Source: Candidatus Chloroploca sp. Khr17
Lineage (GTDB): Bacteria; Chloroflexota; Chloroflexia; Chloroflexales; Chloroflexaceae
Direction of reading: 5' to 3'
Length of the DNA: 64,000 nt
NCBI RefSeq assembly: GCF_004138165.1
Contig: NZ_RYFF01000011.1
Location: 1 to 64,000, forward strand
Below, in pieces: positions 58,312 to 62,754 of this stretch. The notes beneath the pieces were generated by a model that did no database searches, was not told the DNA's origin, and saw nothing but the letters and a program-made list of their open reading frames with translations. The number at the start of each line of letters is the position of its first letter. Position 1 is the first letter of the stretch. The translations under genes were made by a program, and so were the position numbers.

Positions 58312-58848
58312 ATGCAGAGCCCGAACAGTGTCGCCGGGCAATTTCGCACCCTCGAGATGACGGTGCTTATGACGCCGGATACGGCAAACTTCTCAGGCAA
58401 CGTTCACGGTGGGCATCTGCTCAAACTACTCGATCAAGTTGCTTTTGCCTGTGCCTCGCGCTATGCAGGATCGTATGTTGTCACGGTGTCAGTTGACCAG
58501 GTGGTGTTTCACGAACGAGTTCATGTTGGGGAACTGGTCACCTTCATTGCTTCCGTCAATTATACCGGCAAAACGTCGATGGAGATCGGGATTCGGGTTG
58601 TTTCAGAAAATATTACCGAGCGTTCCATTCGCCACGTTCTGACCTGCTATTTCAACATGGTGTCCGTTGATGAAGAGGGCAATCCAAACCCAATTCCATC
58701 GGTGCCCATTGAAAATGCCGAGCAGCGTCGCCGCTGGGCTGCGGCCAAGCTCCGTCGCGATCTCCGCAAAGAGATCGAAGCACGCAGCCTGGAGATTCGC
58801 CAGCACCCCGAAGATATGCTCAGTGAACTGAGCCCCGAGTCAGCTTGA
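58312..58848 (+). CDS. Hotdog-fold acyl-CoA thioesterase (YciA-like)
   Basis: A 178-residue enzyme. NFSGNVHGGHLLKLLDQVAF is the hotdog active-site helix with the conserved Asp. VSVDQVVFHERVHVGELVTF and NYTGKTSMEIGIRV follow, as in YciA/acyl-CoA hydrolase proteins that release CoA from short to long acyl-CoAs. A ~35-residue charged helical tail ends the protein. AAGGAG eight bases before the ATG at 58312 supports this start. A terminator follows. Confidence 0.88.
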   Translation: MQSPNSVAGQFRTLEMTVLMTPDTANFSGNVHGGHLLKLLDQVAFACASRYAGSYVVTVSVDQVVFHERVHVGELVTFIASVNYTGKTSMEIGIRVVSENITERSIRHVLTCYFNMVSVDEEGNPNPIPSVPIENAEQRRRWAAAKLRRDLRKEIEARSLEIRQHPEDMLSELSPESA

Positions 58849-58878
58849 GTCGTGCTTGCCTGACCGCACCGCAACGAA

Positions 58879-58910
58879 AAAAGACGGCAACCAGTTGGTT
58901 GCCGTCTTTT
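58879..58910 (+). terminator. Terminator of the thioesterase gene
   Basis: AAAAGACGGCAACCA-GT-TGGTTGCCGTCTTTT is a perfect 15-bp stem ending in a T-run, 30 bases past the stop codon. Confidence 0.88.
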
Positions 58911-58940
58911 CTGTCCCGAAGCAGTGTCGAAGACATGCAA

Positions 58941-58977
58941 AAGACCTGTCATCCAAACCCACCGTGATGACAGGTCT
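58941..58977 (-). terminator. Terminator of the gp19-like gene
   Basis: AGACCTGTCAT and ATGACAGGTCT pair around about 14 bases. On the minus strand the stem is followed by TTTTGC. It lies 25 bases beyond the stop of the gene ending at 59003 and back-to-back with the thioesterase terminator. Confidence 0.7.
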
Positions 58978-59002
58978 CTTCACAGGTCAGGGGCATCTCG
59001 TC

Positions 59003-59434
59003 CTAGTTCATCAGAATATCATCGCAAATCAACTCGACACTCTCAATTTGGCGACGCCGATCACCCATAGCCTCTCCACTCTCGAGATGCTCGGGCCACG
59101 CCCCGTGGAAGCGCCAGCGTGCGCAGGGGCGACCAAACTCGTCAATCGCAACAATCGAACCGTCGTGGCGCTCGATATGACCTTCAGCATTCGCATGTTC
59201 CCATTTCGGCAACATATCATCGAGCGCGATTCCCTCAGCCAGCACTACCCGCTCCTCGTGATTGGGAGAGTAGACATCGAAGAGATCAATGGCATCCGGG
59301 CCAAAGTAGAACTCGACATGGCGATGCTCAACTTCAAGACCACTGCAATAGCCAAAGACACCCCGCGGAACACCATCAACCTCGACAAGGTAGCGAACAT
59401 TGGCAAAGGGATTGGGCAATTTTCTGTACGCCAT
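59003..59434 (-). CDS. Orphan phage tail-tube (T4 gp19)-like protein
   Basis: A 143-residue protein, close to the usual length for the family. ANVRYLVEVDGVPRGVFGYC and SGLEVEHRHVEF match the first beta-hairpin region of gp19-type tube proteins. IERHDGSIVAIDEFGRPCAR and WRFHGAWPEHLESGE, then IESVELICDDI, match the second half (RRDGSIVLLD..GxExARWxFxxAWP..E pattern). The ATG at 59434 has GGAG upstream; a longer frame from 59551 adds unrelated residues. In phage and contractile injection systems this protein stacks into the inner tube. No sheath, baseplate or other phage gene is in the window, so its role here is unknown. Confidence 0.7.
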   Translation of the reverse strand: MAYRKLPNPFANVRYLVEVDGVPRGVFGYCSGLEVEHRHVEFYFGPDAIDLFDVYSPNHEERVVLAEGIALDDMLPKWEHANAEGHIERHDGSIVAIDEFGRPCARWRFHGAWPEHLESGEAMGDRRRQIESVELICDDILMN

Positions 59435-59649
59435 GGTGAACTCCCTCGTAAATGTAGTCCTGTCAACAGATCCTGCAAGATCCTGTCTAACGAACCTCTT
59501 CCCGCTGTGAACAAAACGATACATGCCCTGTTCCATGCAGTATAACCCCACAGGAGCGGCTGTAGGGTGGTAAGATGCATCCTAAGAGTTAAGAGAGCAT
59601 TACAGGGAGGCAAGGGGCGTGGATGGGGACAGGAAACCAGAGCCAAACA

Positions 59650-59682
59650 GCCCCCACGACCAGCACAACTGGTCGTGGGGGC
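59650..59682 (-). terminator. Terminator of bchE
   Basis: GCCCCCACGACCAG and CTGGTCGTGGGGGC form a perfect 14-bp stem around CACAA, 10 bases past the bchE stop on the minus strand. It is followed there by TGTTTGG. It also insulates the gp19-like gene, so that gene is not simply the tail of the bch operon. Confidence 0.75.
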
Positions 59683-59692
59683 CAACAAGAGC

Positions 59693-61327
59693 TTAACATC
59701 CAACCTGCTTATTCTCGTCACGCAGAGGGGTATTGAGGGTATTCTCAGACTGGTGACGGATTTCTTCGGGGTCAAAGCCACGAGGAATAGCCCCACCGAA
59801 GGTGATATCGGCCACCAATTCGGGGTGATCTTCCTTCAACGTACTCAACTGCTCCATCGTAAAGACACGCGACTCATCAAAGGCCAGGTCGACTTCCATC
59901 TGTGTACCATTCATATGGACACGTCCGAGGTCATAGAAGCGCTTGGTGACGGTCGTCTTCATAAAGGCACGGAGACAACCGAGCATATATTTACGCTTGA
60001 CGGGGTCTTTGATGAAGGGGTATTCAAAGAAGGCCTTGCGCATATAGAACCGGGCATAGTTGCGTAACACACCCTTGAGCACATCTTCGCGATCCATTGC
60101 CTCGGGCTTCATGATCGGGGTGACAAAGTTGTACTTGCTATAGTCACGCACCTCGACCTTATCGCCCAGTTCCTCGAAGAGTTCGGCAAACGGCCACGGC
60201 GTATACATATTCCAGTTGGCCATGTCCGGCTTCCAGTCCTGCGAGAGGCGGTAGGTCTCTTCGATGGTTTCGGGCGTTTCGTTCTCCATGCCCATGATGA
60301 ACTGCGCTTCGGCAACCATCCCATGGGACTGGATCATCTTAATCGCCCGCTTGTTCTGCTCGATCGTCGTCTGCTTGCGGAAGCGGTCAAGGTTCATCTG
60401 GGCGGCTGCCTCGGTGCCAAGCGAGATATGCATCAACCCCGCCTTGCGCCAGAGGGGCAACAGGGCTTCGTCACGCATAATGTCGGTCACGCGAGTATTG
60501 ATCCCCCAGAGCACGGGCAACTTGCGACGCGCCAGTTCTTCACAGAGCGCCGTAAATTTCTTGCGGTTGAGGGTCGGCTCTTCATCGGCAAGAATAAAGA
60601 AGCCCACGTTGTAATCGCGTACCAGCGTCTCGACTTCATCGACAAACTTGAGCGGGCTGCGCGAACGATATTTGCGCCAGAACTTCCACTGCGAGCAGAA
60701 ACGACAGGTAAAGGGACACCCACGGGCAAAGTTGGGCACGGCGACCCGCACATTCATCGGAACATAAATGTACTTGTCCCACTCGAGCAAGCTCCAGTCA
60801 GGCGTCAGAGTATCAAGATCGGCAATCGGATCACGTGCAGGCGTCGCCACAACCTTCTCATTCTCGAGATAAGCAATGCCCTGGATCGTCGCCCGATCTT
60901 TGAGATCACTCCCGGCCTCAATGCTCTTGAGCAACTCAACAATGATCTCTTCACCCTCACCACGCACGATGTAGTCAACCCACGGTGCCTCAGACAAAAC
61001 CTGGGCATACATAAAGGTTGGATGGACGCCACCGAGGATCAACTTGGTGTTGGGCAACAACTCACGCGCCATCTTCAGGGTTGCCTGGGCCTTGATGATC
61101 ATTGGGGTGATCGCTGTTGCCAGAATCACGTCAGGCCGGTTGCGCTCGATGATGACCCGCAATTGATCATCGGGGATGTCGAGCGTCATGGCGTCAATGA
61201 AACGAACATTGTCGAATCCGGCCGTCTTAAGCGCGCCTCCGATATAGGCGACCCAACTCGGCGGCCAACTGCCCGCGATTTCAGCTCCGCCCGCGTGGTA
61301 ATTGGGCTGGATCATCATGATCCGCAT
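59693..61327 (-). CDS. bchE: Mg-protoporphyrin IX monomethyl ester anaerobic cyclase
   Basis: A 544-residue radical-SAM/B12 protein that forms the isocyclic ring of bacteriochlorophyll without oxygen, using water-derived oxygen and cobalamin. An N-terminal B12-binding-type domain (LPNTKLILGGVHPTFM, YIVRGEGEEIIVELL) is followed by the radical-SAM cysteines in CPFTCRFC (CxxxCxxC, near residue 203), followed by SQWKFWRKYRSRSPLKFVDE. The start at 61327 (MRIMMIQPN) has GGAG upstream. It is preceded by bchJ on the same strand, 109 bp away. Related B12-radical-SAM enzymes exist, but this motif context and the V4R neighbour favour BchE. Confidence 0.88.
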   Translation of the reverse strand: MRIMMIQPNYHAGGAEIAGSWPPSWVAYIGGALKTAGFDNVRFIDAMTLDIPDDQLRVIIERNRPDVILATAITPMIIKAQATLKMARELLPNTKLILGGVHPTFMYAQVLSEAPWVDYIVRGEGEEIIVELLKSIEAGSDLKDRATIQGIAYLENEKVVATPARDPIADLDTLTPDWSLLEWDKYIYVPMNVRVAVPNFARGCPFTCRFCSQWKFWRKYRSRSPLKFVDEVETLVRDYNVGFFILADEEPTLNRKKFTALCEELARRKLPVLWGINTRVTDIMRDEALLPLWRKAGLMHISLGTEAAAQMNLDRFRKQTTIEQNKRAIKMIQSHGMVAEAQFIMGMENETPETIEETYRLSQDWKPDMANWNMYTPWPFAELFEELGDKVEVRDYSKYNFVTPIMKPEAMDREDVLKGVLRNYARFYMRKAFFEYPFIKDPVKRKYMLGCLRAFMKTTVTKRFYDLGRVHMNGTQMEVDLAFDESRVFTMEQLSTLKEDHPELVADITFGGAIPRGFDPEEIRHQSENTLNTPLRDENKQVGC

Positions 61328-61436
61328 AGCGGTCTCCCTTGTTGATGGGGCCATAATGGCCCTGCGACTGACAACAGACTCTGTACTACAAAAACCTACG
61401 AGAACGGAGGCCAGCGCCTCCGGCGAACGCCCCTAT

Positions 61437-62048
61437 TCAGGGGATGGTCACCTCGAACGTACACGCATCAGCACCCATCGCGCCACATGCTGTTTCGCGA
61501 ACGATGAGCCGCGGATTGATCAAGGGACGCAAGAGAGCTTGAAAACAGTGGGTGTAGTAGTGACACAATGGTGCATCAGTTGCCATCCCACGACACTCGG
61601 GGCTGTCGGCCAGACAAATGGTGGCCCCTCGCCGCCCCACATCATAGCTGAAACGGCCGCTGCCAGCAAAGGTCCAGGCATGACCAGCGATCGCCTTCAA
61701 AAAGATGCGCAAACCGAGTGAAGAGGGCAACCATGGTAAAAGGATCCGGATCGGCGCAGGAATACGGTTGGCGAGCAAATAGTCGGCAGTGCGTTCGCCT
61801 GAACGGGCCAGCACCTTGCCGGTCGCCTCAAAACCGAGATCAGTGCGCAAGGCGTTGATCAGCGCCATAAACACTTGCTCATCAACCATGTCGGTCGGCA
61901 ATTGCTCGTTCAACGCGCTGTGCCCAATCCGCTCCAGGATCGCCCGGGCGTCCTCGGCACCATATACCTCGTTGAGCGCCCCCACCGTCTGGATAATTGA
62001 GTTCGGGCCAATGCGCACAACACCTGCTGTCGCGTGTGTTGTATGCAT
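61437..62048 (-). CDS. bchJ: BchJ-type V4R (4-vinyl reductase) domain protein
   Basis: A 203-residue protein. A ~90-residue N-terminal helical region (IIQTVGALNEVYGAEDARAI) precedes a V4R domain (WTFAGSGRFSYDVG) with cysteines in CLADSPEC, CHYYTHC and RETACGAMGADACTFEV. BchJ was first linked to 8-vinyl reduction but now appears to assist chlorophyll-precursor handling. Adjacent bchE supports a role in bacteriochlorophyll synthesis. I use the ATG at 62048, with AAAGG upstream; ATGs at 62066 and 62090 are possible. It is divergent from hoxE. Confidence 0.85.
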   Translation of the reverse strand: MHTTHATAGVVRIGPNSIIQTVGALNEVYGAEDARAILERIGHSALNEQLPTDMVDEQVFMALINALRTDLGFEATGKVLARSGERTADYLLANRIPAPIRILLPWLPSSLGLRIFLKAIAGHAWTFAGSGRFSYDVGRRGATICLADSPECRGMATDAPLCHYYTHCFQALLRPLINPRLIVRETACGAMGADACTFEVTIP

Positions 62049-62244
62049 AACAGAACCTTTCACCATGAAAACAATCCCATGACATTTCATATCATGATAG
62101 CCCGCGAGAAGTCTACCACGCAGGCTCGTGTCAAAGGGTAATGATCGCTCAACACTACGTAAGGTTTTCTTCTCTGATCAGGATGCGCCAGGATGCTACC
62201 ATGAGATAATGTGAGCGTCATAGTTGACGAGATAGGGACTGCGT

Positions 62245-62754
62245 ATGGCTACTGCCTCTCCCCGCGAGGTACCCACCGACCAGGCGAATGACAAACGCCT
62301 CAAGATCCTTGAGGCGACGATGAAACGCCACCAGTACCGCGCTGATGCGCTGATCGAGGTCTTGCATAAAGCGCAAGAATTGTATGGGCATCTGACCGAA
62401 GATCGGTTACTGGCGATTGCCCATAGCCTGCACCTTCCTCCGAGTCGCGTCTATGGGGTGGCGACGTTTTATCATTTCTTTAGCCTGACCCCTCAAGGCG
62501 AGCACAGTTGTACCGTCTGCCTTGGAACGGCATGTTATGTCAAAGGGGCGATGGAACTGCTCGCGGCCCTCGAAGCCGAGAGTGGCCTGCGGGCGGGGTC
62601 AACTTCTGCCGATCGCAAGCTTTCGCTATTGACCGCTCGCTGCCTCGGGGCGTGCGGCATTGCGCCTGCGGTAATCGTGGATGGCAATGTGACCGGCCAT
62701 GCCGATCCCGAAGTGATGCGGGCACGAGTGCGTGCGTTGCTTGATGAGGAGTGA
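62245..62754 (+). CDS. hoxE: HoxE/NuoE-like [2Fe-2S] diaphorase subunit
   Basis: A 169-residue thioredoxin-fold iron-sulfur protein. The four cysteine ligands are in CTVCLGTACYVKGA (two, five residues apart) and RCLGACGIAPAV (two, four residues apart). It matches NuoE and its HoxE counterpart in NAD-linked bidirectional hydrogenases. The N-terminal ATMKRHQYRADALIEVLHKAQ helix is typical. With the next gene it forms the electron-input module; whether the complex is a hydrogenase, a formate dehydrogenase or complex I depends on genes beyond the window. The next start is 9 bp downstream. Confidence 0.85.
   Translation: MATASPREVPTDQANDKRLKILEATMKRHQYRADALIEVLHKAQELYGHLTEDRLLAIAHSLHLPPSRVYGVATFYHFFSLTPQGEHSCTVCLGTACYVKGAMELLAALEAESGLRAGSTSADRKLSLLTARCLGACGIAPAVIVDGNVTGHADPEVMRARVRALLDEE

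Follow-up and report, generated by a model that had tools for sequence, protein, structure and literature searches.

We find that a small gene beside bchE in Chloroploca encodes a homologue of the T4 gp19/contractile injection system (CIS) inner tube, and we lean towards the view that its product, hereafter the orphan, is a tube protein domesticated for a role of its own that has probably lost the ability to stack. A fuller version, in which a phage-tail tube ring has been exapted in a phototrophic Chloroflexaceae clade as a cellular module (a stacking-free barrel with its own promoter and a non-injection task), is one that we put forward tentatively. Tail tubes are already known to be reused as injection tubes; if our reading is true, the subunit itself would have been reused here, as a conserved tube protein maintained in the absence of sheath and baseplate, and the lineage would provide a natural test of the β2-β3 hairpin, its barrel having been preserved by selection as the stacking surface changed.

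A gp19/CIS inner-tube homologue next to bchE

The window analysed here is a stretch of 64,000 bases, bases 1-64000 of the 142-kb contig C8 in a Chloroploca genome (G000) of 6.38 Mb and 171 contigs. Its relevant features are the following.

58879-58910: inverted repeat with perfect 15-nt arms between the thioesterase gene and the orphan, terminator-like by eye
58939-58980: inverted repeat of 15 nt, 93%, downstream of the orphan
59003-59434, minus strand: orphan gp19/CIS-tube-fold protein gene, from the reading frame, PF06841, AF2 and Foldseek
59441-59447, minus strand: ribosome binding site GAGGGAG, read by eye
59535-59546, minus strand: promoter-like box GTTATACTGCAT with the kept core GTTATACT, from an upstream alignment
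59650-59682: inverted repeat with perfect 14-nt arms in the bchE-orphan gap, immediately following bchE
59693-61354, minus strand: bchE, anaerobic Mg-protoporphyrin monomethyl ester cyclase (TIGR02026, 851 bits, over the cut-off), a neighbour only
61437-62090, minus strand: bchJ (TIGR02019, 225 bits), a neighbour
62245-62754, plus strand: hoxE of the bidirectional hydrogenase (NF005747, 249 bits, cut-off 224), a divergent neighbour

The orphan frame runs on the minus strand from an ATG at 59434 to a stop ending at 59003 and encodes 143 residues; the plus-strand translation of 59003-59434 was rejected, as it matched no Pfam family. A profile search with PF06841 matches the product with an E value of 7.4e-13 and 48.9 bits, over the cut-off of 28.2, and the alignment is nearly full length (residues 12-135 against profile positions 2-128 of 134), which bears out the family named in an initial annotation of this DNA, T4 gp19/CIS inner tube, and very nearly its description of the match as running end to end. 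In a phmmer search of PDB sequences the orphan matches the AlgoCIS and Anabaena tubes at ~2e-6. The AF2 monomer, computed from an alignment of the 14 orthologues described below, has a pLDDT of 76.6 and shows the tube β-barrel and helix; CIS tubes are the best Foldseek matches to this model (probability 1.00, TM ~0.5), in the order AlgoCIS (5.1e-5), then PVC, Anabaena, Streptomyces and AFP. VIA returns Hcp and CIS tubes, with a best Z of 10.9 (6bdc) at an rmsd of 5.9 over 106 aligned residues. From these profile and fold results, including the monomer prediction that the initial annotation had proposed as a check, the assignment to the gp19/CIS tube family stands, and neither kind of search gave an unrelated family. 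The 14 orthologues have 25 invariant columns in common, so that the orphan is not a chance reading frame.

The immediate surroundings agree in part with what had been read from the DNA. GAGGGAG precedes the start codon, as expected of a gene said to have its own ribosome binding site, and a GGGAGG- or GAGGAGG-like site lies before the start in the other 13 orthologues too. Terminators had been placed on both sides of the gene; inverted repeats do flank it, but a consensus terminator scan lists none of the three (58879-58910, 58939-58980 and 59650-59682) and reports one other site, 59639-59654, with 0.9 expected, so that these terminators are a by-eye call. The gene had likewise been placed between bchE and a thioesterase, and here bchE is secure, being over its cut-off, whereas the other neighbour matches thioesterase models at scores that are all under the cut-offs. 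The gene at 62245-62754 looks like nuoE, yet it is over the HoxE cut-off.

The box upstream of the orphan is a candidate promoter. Its core GTTATACT is invariant in 8/8 aligned upstream regions from three genera, among them Viridilinea, where the gene lies elsewhere, and Chloroploca G000 and Viridilinea G040 have TGTGGGGTTATACTGCAT in common despite their different gene locations. The alignment (A3) covers 8 of the 14 regions and leaves out five genomes of genus g11 as well as G031, in all six of which no box is seen in the 130 nt upstream inspected. We take the TATACT in GTTATACTGCAT to resemble a sigma-70 -10 element; a sigma-70 scan of 58800-59760 does not list the box and finds one site, inside the gene. 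In the 11 genomes with the order bchJ-bchE-orphan, the gap between bchE and the orphan exceeds 200 bp, and from the conserved box and this spacing we infer that the orphan has its own promoter. A regulon for the box was considered and rejected, as none is seen: the GTTATACTGCAT 12-mer occurs twice in the genome and a control 12-mer once.

Distribution, history and selection

An orthologue at 6e-31 or better is present in 14 of the 41 family-level genomes, with the frame open in 14/14, and has been retained across five genera. When a profile of the 14 orphans was searched against 158 genomes of the class, with no more than 25 candidates scored per genome, those 14 reach at least 210 bits and the next match 108.6. 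A scan of genome_contigs (84,980 species) by sequence pattern yields 20 loci, of which 12 have at least 39% identity and all belong to Chloroploca, Viridilinea, Oscillochloris or other Chloroflexi/Chloroflexales; the remaining 8 are at or below 34%. The closest named relatives of this protein are in Candidatus Chloroploca mongolica (97%) and C. asiatica (94%). A recent phage origin was rejected, since a tblastn search of 50,697 phage records gives no hit at E 0.01; the 11 matches in viral contigs have identities of 35% or less.

A tree built from 74 gp19 rows places the 14 orphans in one clade (100/100) with a stem of 1.44. Of the 60 rows used for comparison, 38 come from the 60 non-orphan matches in the family, 12 from elsewhere in the class, 8 from genome_contigs and 2 from viral contigs; they are gp19 relatives, not each an established CIS tube, and several are long-branched. 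Nearest to the clade is a tube on contig C724 of G001 (88/90), which also carries a sheath fragment; this placement is tentative because of the long stem. The orphan label needs two changes in a bchE tree of 13 carriers and 10 of the 27 non-carriers, in which the 13 bchE-holding carriers, from four genera, group with two orphan-less rows of genus g16 (91/91, not starred), and two changes in a bchJ tree, with which one is also compatible. We infer a single gain, and one gain followed by loss in genus g16 would be the simplest account of this history.

The orphan is under purifying selection. Its dN/dS lies between 0.05 and 0.18 in 12/12 pairs, which are non-independent, compared with 0.01-0.12 for bchE (12 pairs), 0.07-0.35 for bchJ (11 pairs), 0.03-0.13 for hoxE (3 pairs) and 0.02-0.05 for the thioesterase (3 pairs); some dS values in this comparison are high, with pS up to 0.61. 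The orphan evolves faster than bchE.

A rewritten ring-stacking segment

In pyocin and T4 the stretch corresponding to residues 34-67 forms a hairpin extending to the underlying disk, and in the unassembled diffocin protein CD1364 it is described as a flexible helix (PMC6088184). Deletion of the stacking loop results in no tube formation in T5, no growth in SPP1 and mostly hexameric rings in YSD1, as described in PMC8718954, and Hcp1 loop mutants are reported to be unable to stack (PMC4650826).

We find 14 positions that are diagnostic for the 14 orphans relative to the 60 other gp19 rows, 9 of which fall within residues 46-67. Position 53 is K/R in 52/60 other rows and D/E in 14/14 orphans, while P55 (54/60 others), G56 (51/60) and R67 (47/60) occur in 0/14 orphans; outside this stretch, at position 116, K/R is found in 53/60 other rows and lost in 13/14 orphans. 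The net charge of residues 34-67 has a median of -8 (-9 to -6) in the orphans and +1 (-3 to +4) in the other rows, with p 4.9e-9 uncorrected for kinship. In sequence, then, residues 34-67 have been rewritten in the orphans. Also outside residues 34-67, the conserved Cys30 and His90 were considered as a cofactor site and rejected, as Cys30 is also Cys in 33/60 other rows; His90 is His in 14/14 orphans and K/R in 52/60 others, from which alone nothing firm follows.

The predicted structures differ in the same place. In the orphan model residues 36-44 and 48-57 have pLDDT <50 and no strand is found between 32 and 60, whereas a C102 tube, from the CIS locus of the same genome and modelled on a 14-row alignment, has hairpin strands at 34-43 and 50-60 with block means of 73-84. 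The control alignment is more diverse than that of the orphan (23-40% identity) and tubes of the C102 type are present in the PDB from which AF2 learned, so that this contrast is support, not proof. The AF2 result alone proves little, because the loop is dynamic in free tube subunits (PMC8718954) or, as in CD1364, differently folded. Nor does an acidic loop alone exclude stacking, since the charge of the loop varies among working tubes: PMC8718954 describes it as mostly negative for PVC and lambda, but as positive for pyocin R2. In AlgoCIS and the Anabaena CIS the tube lumen is negative (PMC8894135, PMC8894136). The inter-ring hairpin of the orphan has altered residues, an altered charge and a different predicted structure, which together suggest a loss of stacking; the orphan is probably unable to stack.

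Relation to contractile injection systems

The initial annotation saw no sheath or baseplate gene in the 64 kb, and we find that the matches of G000 to PF04984, PF17482 and PF04965 are on contig C102 only. The wider genome search that it called for turns up a CIS locus on this contig, apart from the orphan contig C8, with genes for a sheath, a sheath C-domain protein, two gp19 tubes, CIS_tube (PF19266), a hub, a spike OB protein, gp25, Baseplate_J and Tail_P2_I. The proposal of a remote CIS served by a dispersed tube gene thus gains its remote locus, but that locus has two tubes of its own, with each of which the orphan shares ~21% identity. Both pass TIGR02241 (103.6 and 95.8 bits, cut-off 62.4) and the orphan, at 47.5 bits, does not. 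The orphan is also under the cut-offs of CIS5 (NF053770; 31.8 bits, cut-off 260) and CIS1 (15.1 bits, cut-off 220), a weak test because the ordinary C102 tubes of this genome miss both as well. A 476-aa protein encoded on the same contig (L005:25-1939) matches the sheath C-domain model by a narrow margin (27.2 bits, cut-off 26.9), does not match Phage_sheath_1 and adjoins the second, long-branched tube.

Among the carriers, G003 (a 97% complete draft of 850 contigs) and G027 (a 99% complete draft of 90 contigs) have no match to PF04984, PF17482 or PF04965 and the orphan as their sole PF06841 match; as both are drafts, a CIS may have been missed. A sheath is matched in each of the remaining 12 carriers, one of which (G025, 84% complete) lacks gp25. 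Sheath genes are thus found in 12/14 carriers and 12/27 non-carriers (Fisher p 0.018, uncorrected for kinship), an enrichment that favours a CIS-linked function. No orphan shares a contig with a sheath match (0/14), several of these contigs being short. The tubes of the carriers fall into separate clades, those of G024 and G026 with the Chloroflexus-like G007, that of G000 with G029 and G025, and those of G039 and G040 with G033, so that the orphan stays while the CIS types differ. The orphan fails the tests of place, strict co-occurrence and TIGR02241 cut-off for a structural part of a CIS.

CIS turnover occurs within the genus: in G015 the sheath family PF04984 and gp25 are each matched four times, on contigs C69, C86, C111 and C122, and in G000 and G014 once each. 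In G027 (L047:6713-9682) the orphan is followed on the same strand by genes for a proline-rich LysM protein and an RPE65-family protein, and each of these two clusters is found in 4/14 orphan loci, all in genus g11. The LysM protein was considered as a CIS7-like partner and rejected, as it shows no similarity to the C102 CIS_tube (16 bits).

Comparison with known systems

The orphan resembles the CIS inner tubes (AlgoCIS, PVC, AFP and Anabaena; PF06841) in fold, length (~140 aa) and profile match, and has the core positions E18, G21, F27, G32, L33, G68, W78, W113 and P114 in common with them. Unlike these tubes, it lies outside any CIS locus found, occurs in two draft genomes without CIS genes, and has the acidic, rewritten segment 34-67, without K/R53, P55, G56 and R67. 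The CIS5-type tube adaptor is the better of its two NCBIfam CIS matches, yet far under the cut-off given above. Hcp of type VI secretion has the same fold (6bdc, the best VIA match); unlike Hcp, the orphan matches gp19/CIS models in sequence, and at 143 residues it is too short to include a fused effector domain. Some hcp genes are likewise orphans, located outside type VI secretion clusters.

CIS particles have been shown in Roseiflexus, of the same phylum (PMC12998442); the words "orphan", "Chloroploca", "Viridilinea" and "Oscillochloris" are absent from the main text of that paper. The main text of the Chloroploca/Viridilinea genome paper (PMC6180586) does not contain the terms "tail", "contractile" or "bchE". 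Judged by title or abstract opening, none of the open-licence papers listed on orphan, domesticated or co-opted tube proteins, on eCIS with Chloroflexi or a tail tube, or on Chloroploca or contractile injection reports a protein like this one. No open-licence paper was found that combines a phage tail protein, bchE and Chloroflexus.

Origin, possible roles and the bchE neighbourhood

The co-option that the initial annotation offered as its second reading is the better supported one, given two of 14 carriers without CIS genes, a separate, diverged clade and the lost hairpin residues. The source would have been a tube gene, probably of a Chloroflexaceae CIS, that arrived near hoxE and bchJ-bchE in the ancestor of Chloroploca, Viridilinea and Oscillochloris-like genera; there it would have turned into its own transcription unit, diverged strongly and then come under purifying selection. 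Pairing of the barrel core into one ring may still occur, or the protein may remain a monomer, and with the hairpin that joins successive rings changed, the orphan would not build an injection tube. Most likely it would serve as an independent ring or adaptor module with no part in injection.

The main rival to this domesticated, stand-alone protein is a CIS accessory that acts in trans; it would join the tubes of any CIS present, whether as their last ring, as an adaptor or to limit their length, or, in an alternative form, would block the tubes of other CISs or phages. We regard this rival as somewhat unlikely. The sheath gene in 12/14 carriers speaks for it, and a terminator or poison would presumably require just such a subunit, one able to pair but not to stack; CIS5, the adaptor model, fits the orphan better than CIS1 does, but it also fits both C102 tubes better. 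Set against this are the intact orphan, with low dN/dS to its neighbours, in the two carriers without detected CIS genes, the separate clades of the carriers' tubes, which leave no constant partner system, and the absence of sheath matches from all orphan contigs, several of which are short.

A function tied to the neighbours, in anaerobic bacteriochlorophyll synthesis (bchJ-bchE) or with the Hox hydrogenase, appears improbable. The order bchJ-bchE-orphan does recur in 11/14 carriers, with hoxE beside it in 10 of these 11 (the G025 contig ends first); hoxE is within ~3.4 kb of the orphan in 11/14, directly adjoining it in G031 (OHK40), and BchL is over the cut-off in 13/14 carriers with a contig-edge match in the other. 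However, bchE and the orphan are separated by >200 bp and, in the window, also by a hairpin, G031 keeps the orphan without a bchE match, and in both Viridilinea genomes hoxE, bchJ and bchE lie together with the orphan on another contig, where it adjoins an ABC-transporter permease gene in the one genome with neighbours scanned. Moreover, bchE is matched in 40/41 family genomes and HoxE in 40/41 (34 over the cut-off), mostly without the orphan, and a link to the hydrogenase as such was rejected because HoxE is then not discriminating. Among 12 further bchE loci, 10, from non-carriers, are bchJ-bchE without hoxE in the stretch fetched. The gene order is explicable by shared descent; the place beside bchJ-bchE is likely inherited and lends a role in pigment synthesis little support. 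That the orphan is a functionless remnant of a tube gene is highly improbable; its faster evolution than that of bchE would fit, but its low dN/dS in all 12 pairs, its open frame in every carrier and its presence in five genera argue otherwise. A link to gas vesicles was also rejected (11/14 carriers and 15/27 others, p 0.19).

In G031 (locus L040), listed as 100% complete, BchL is over the cut-off but bchE is not matched at E 1e-60 or better; this phototroph may have lost the anaerobic cyclase. Two bchE matches in other genomes, G016:C153:2329-3918 and G030:C31:4578-6071, contain one in-frame TGA each, and G030 has a second bchE match with no stop.
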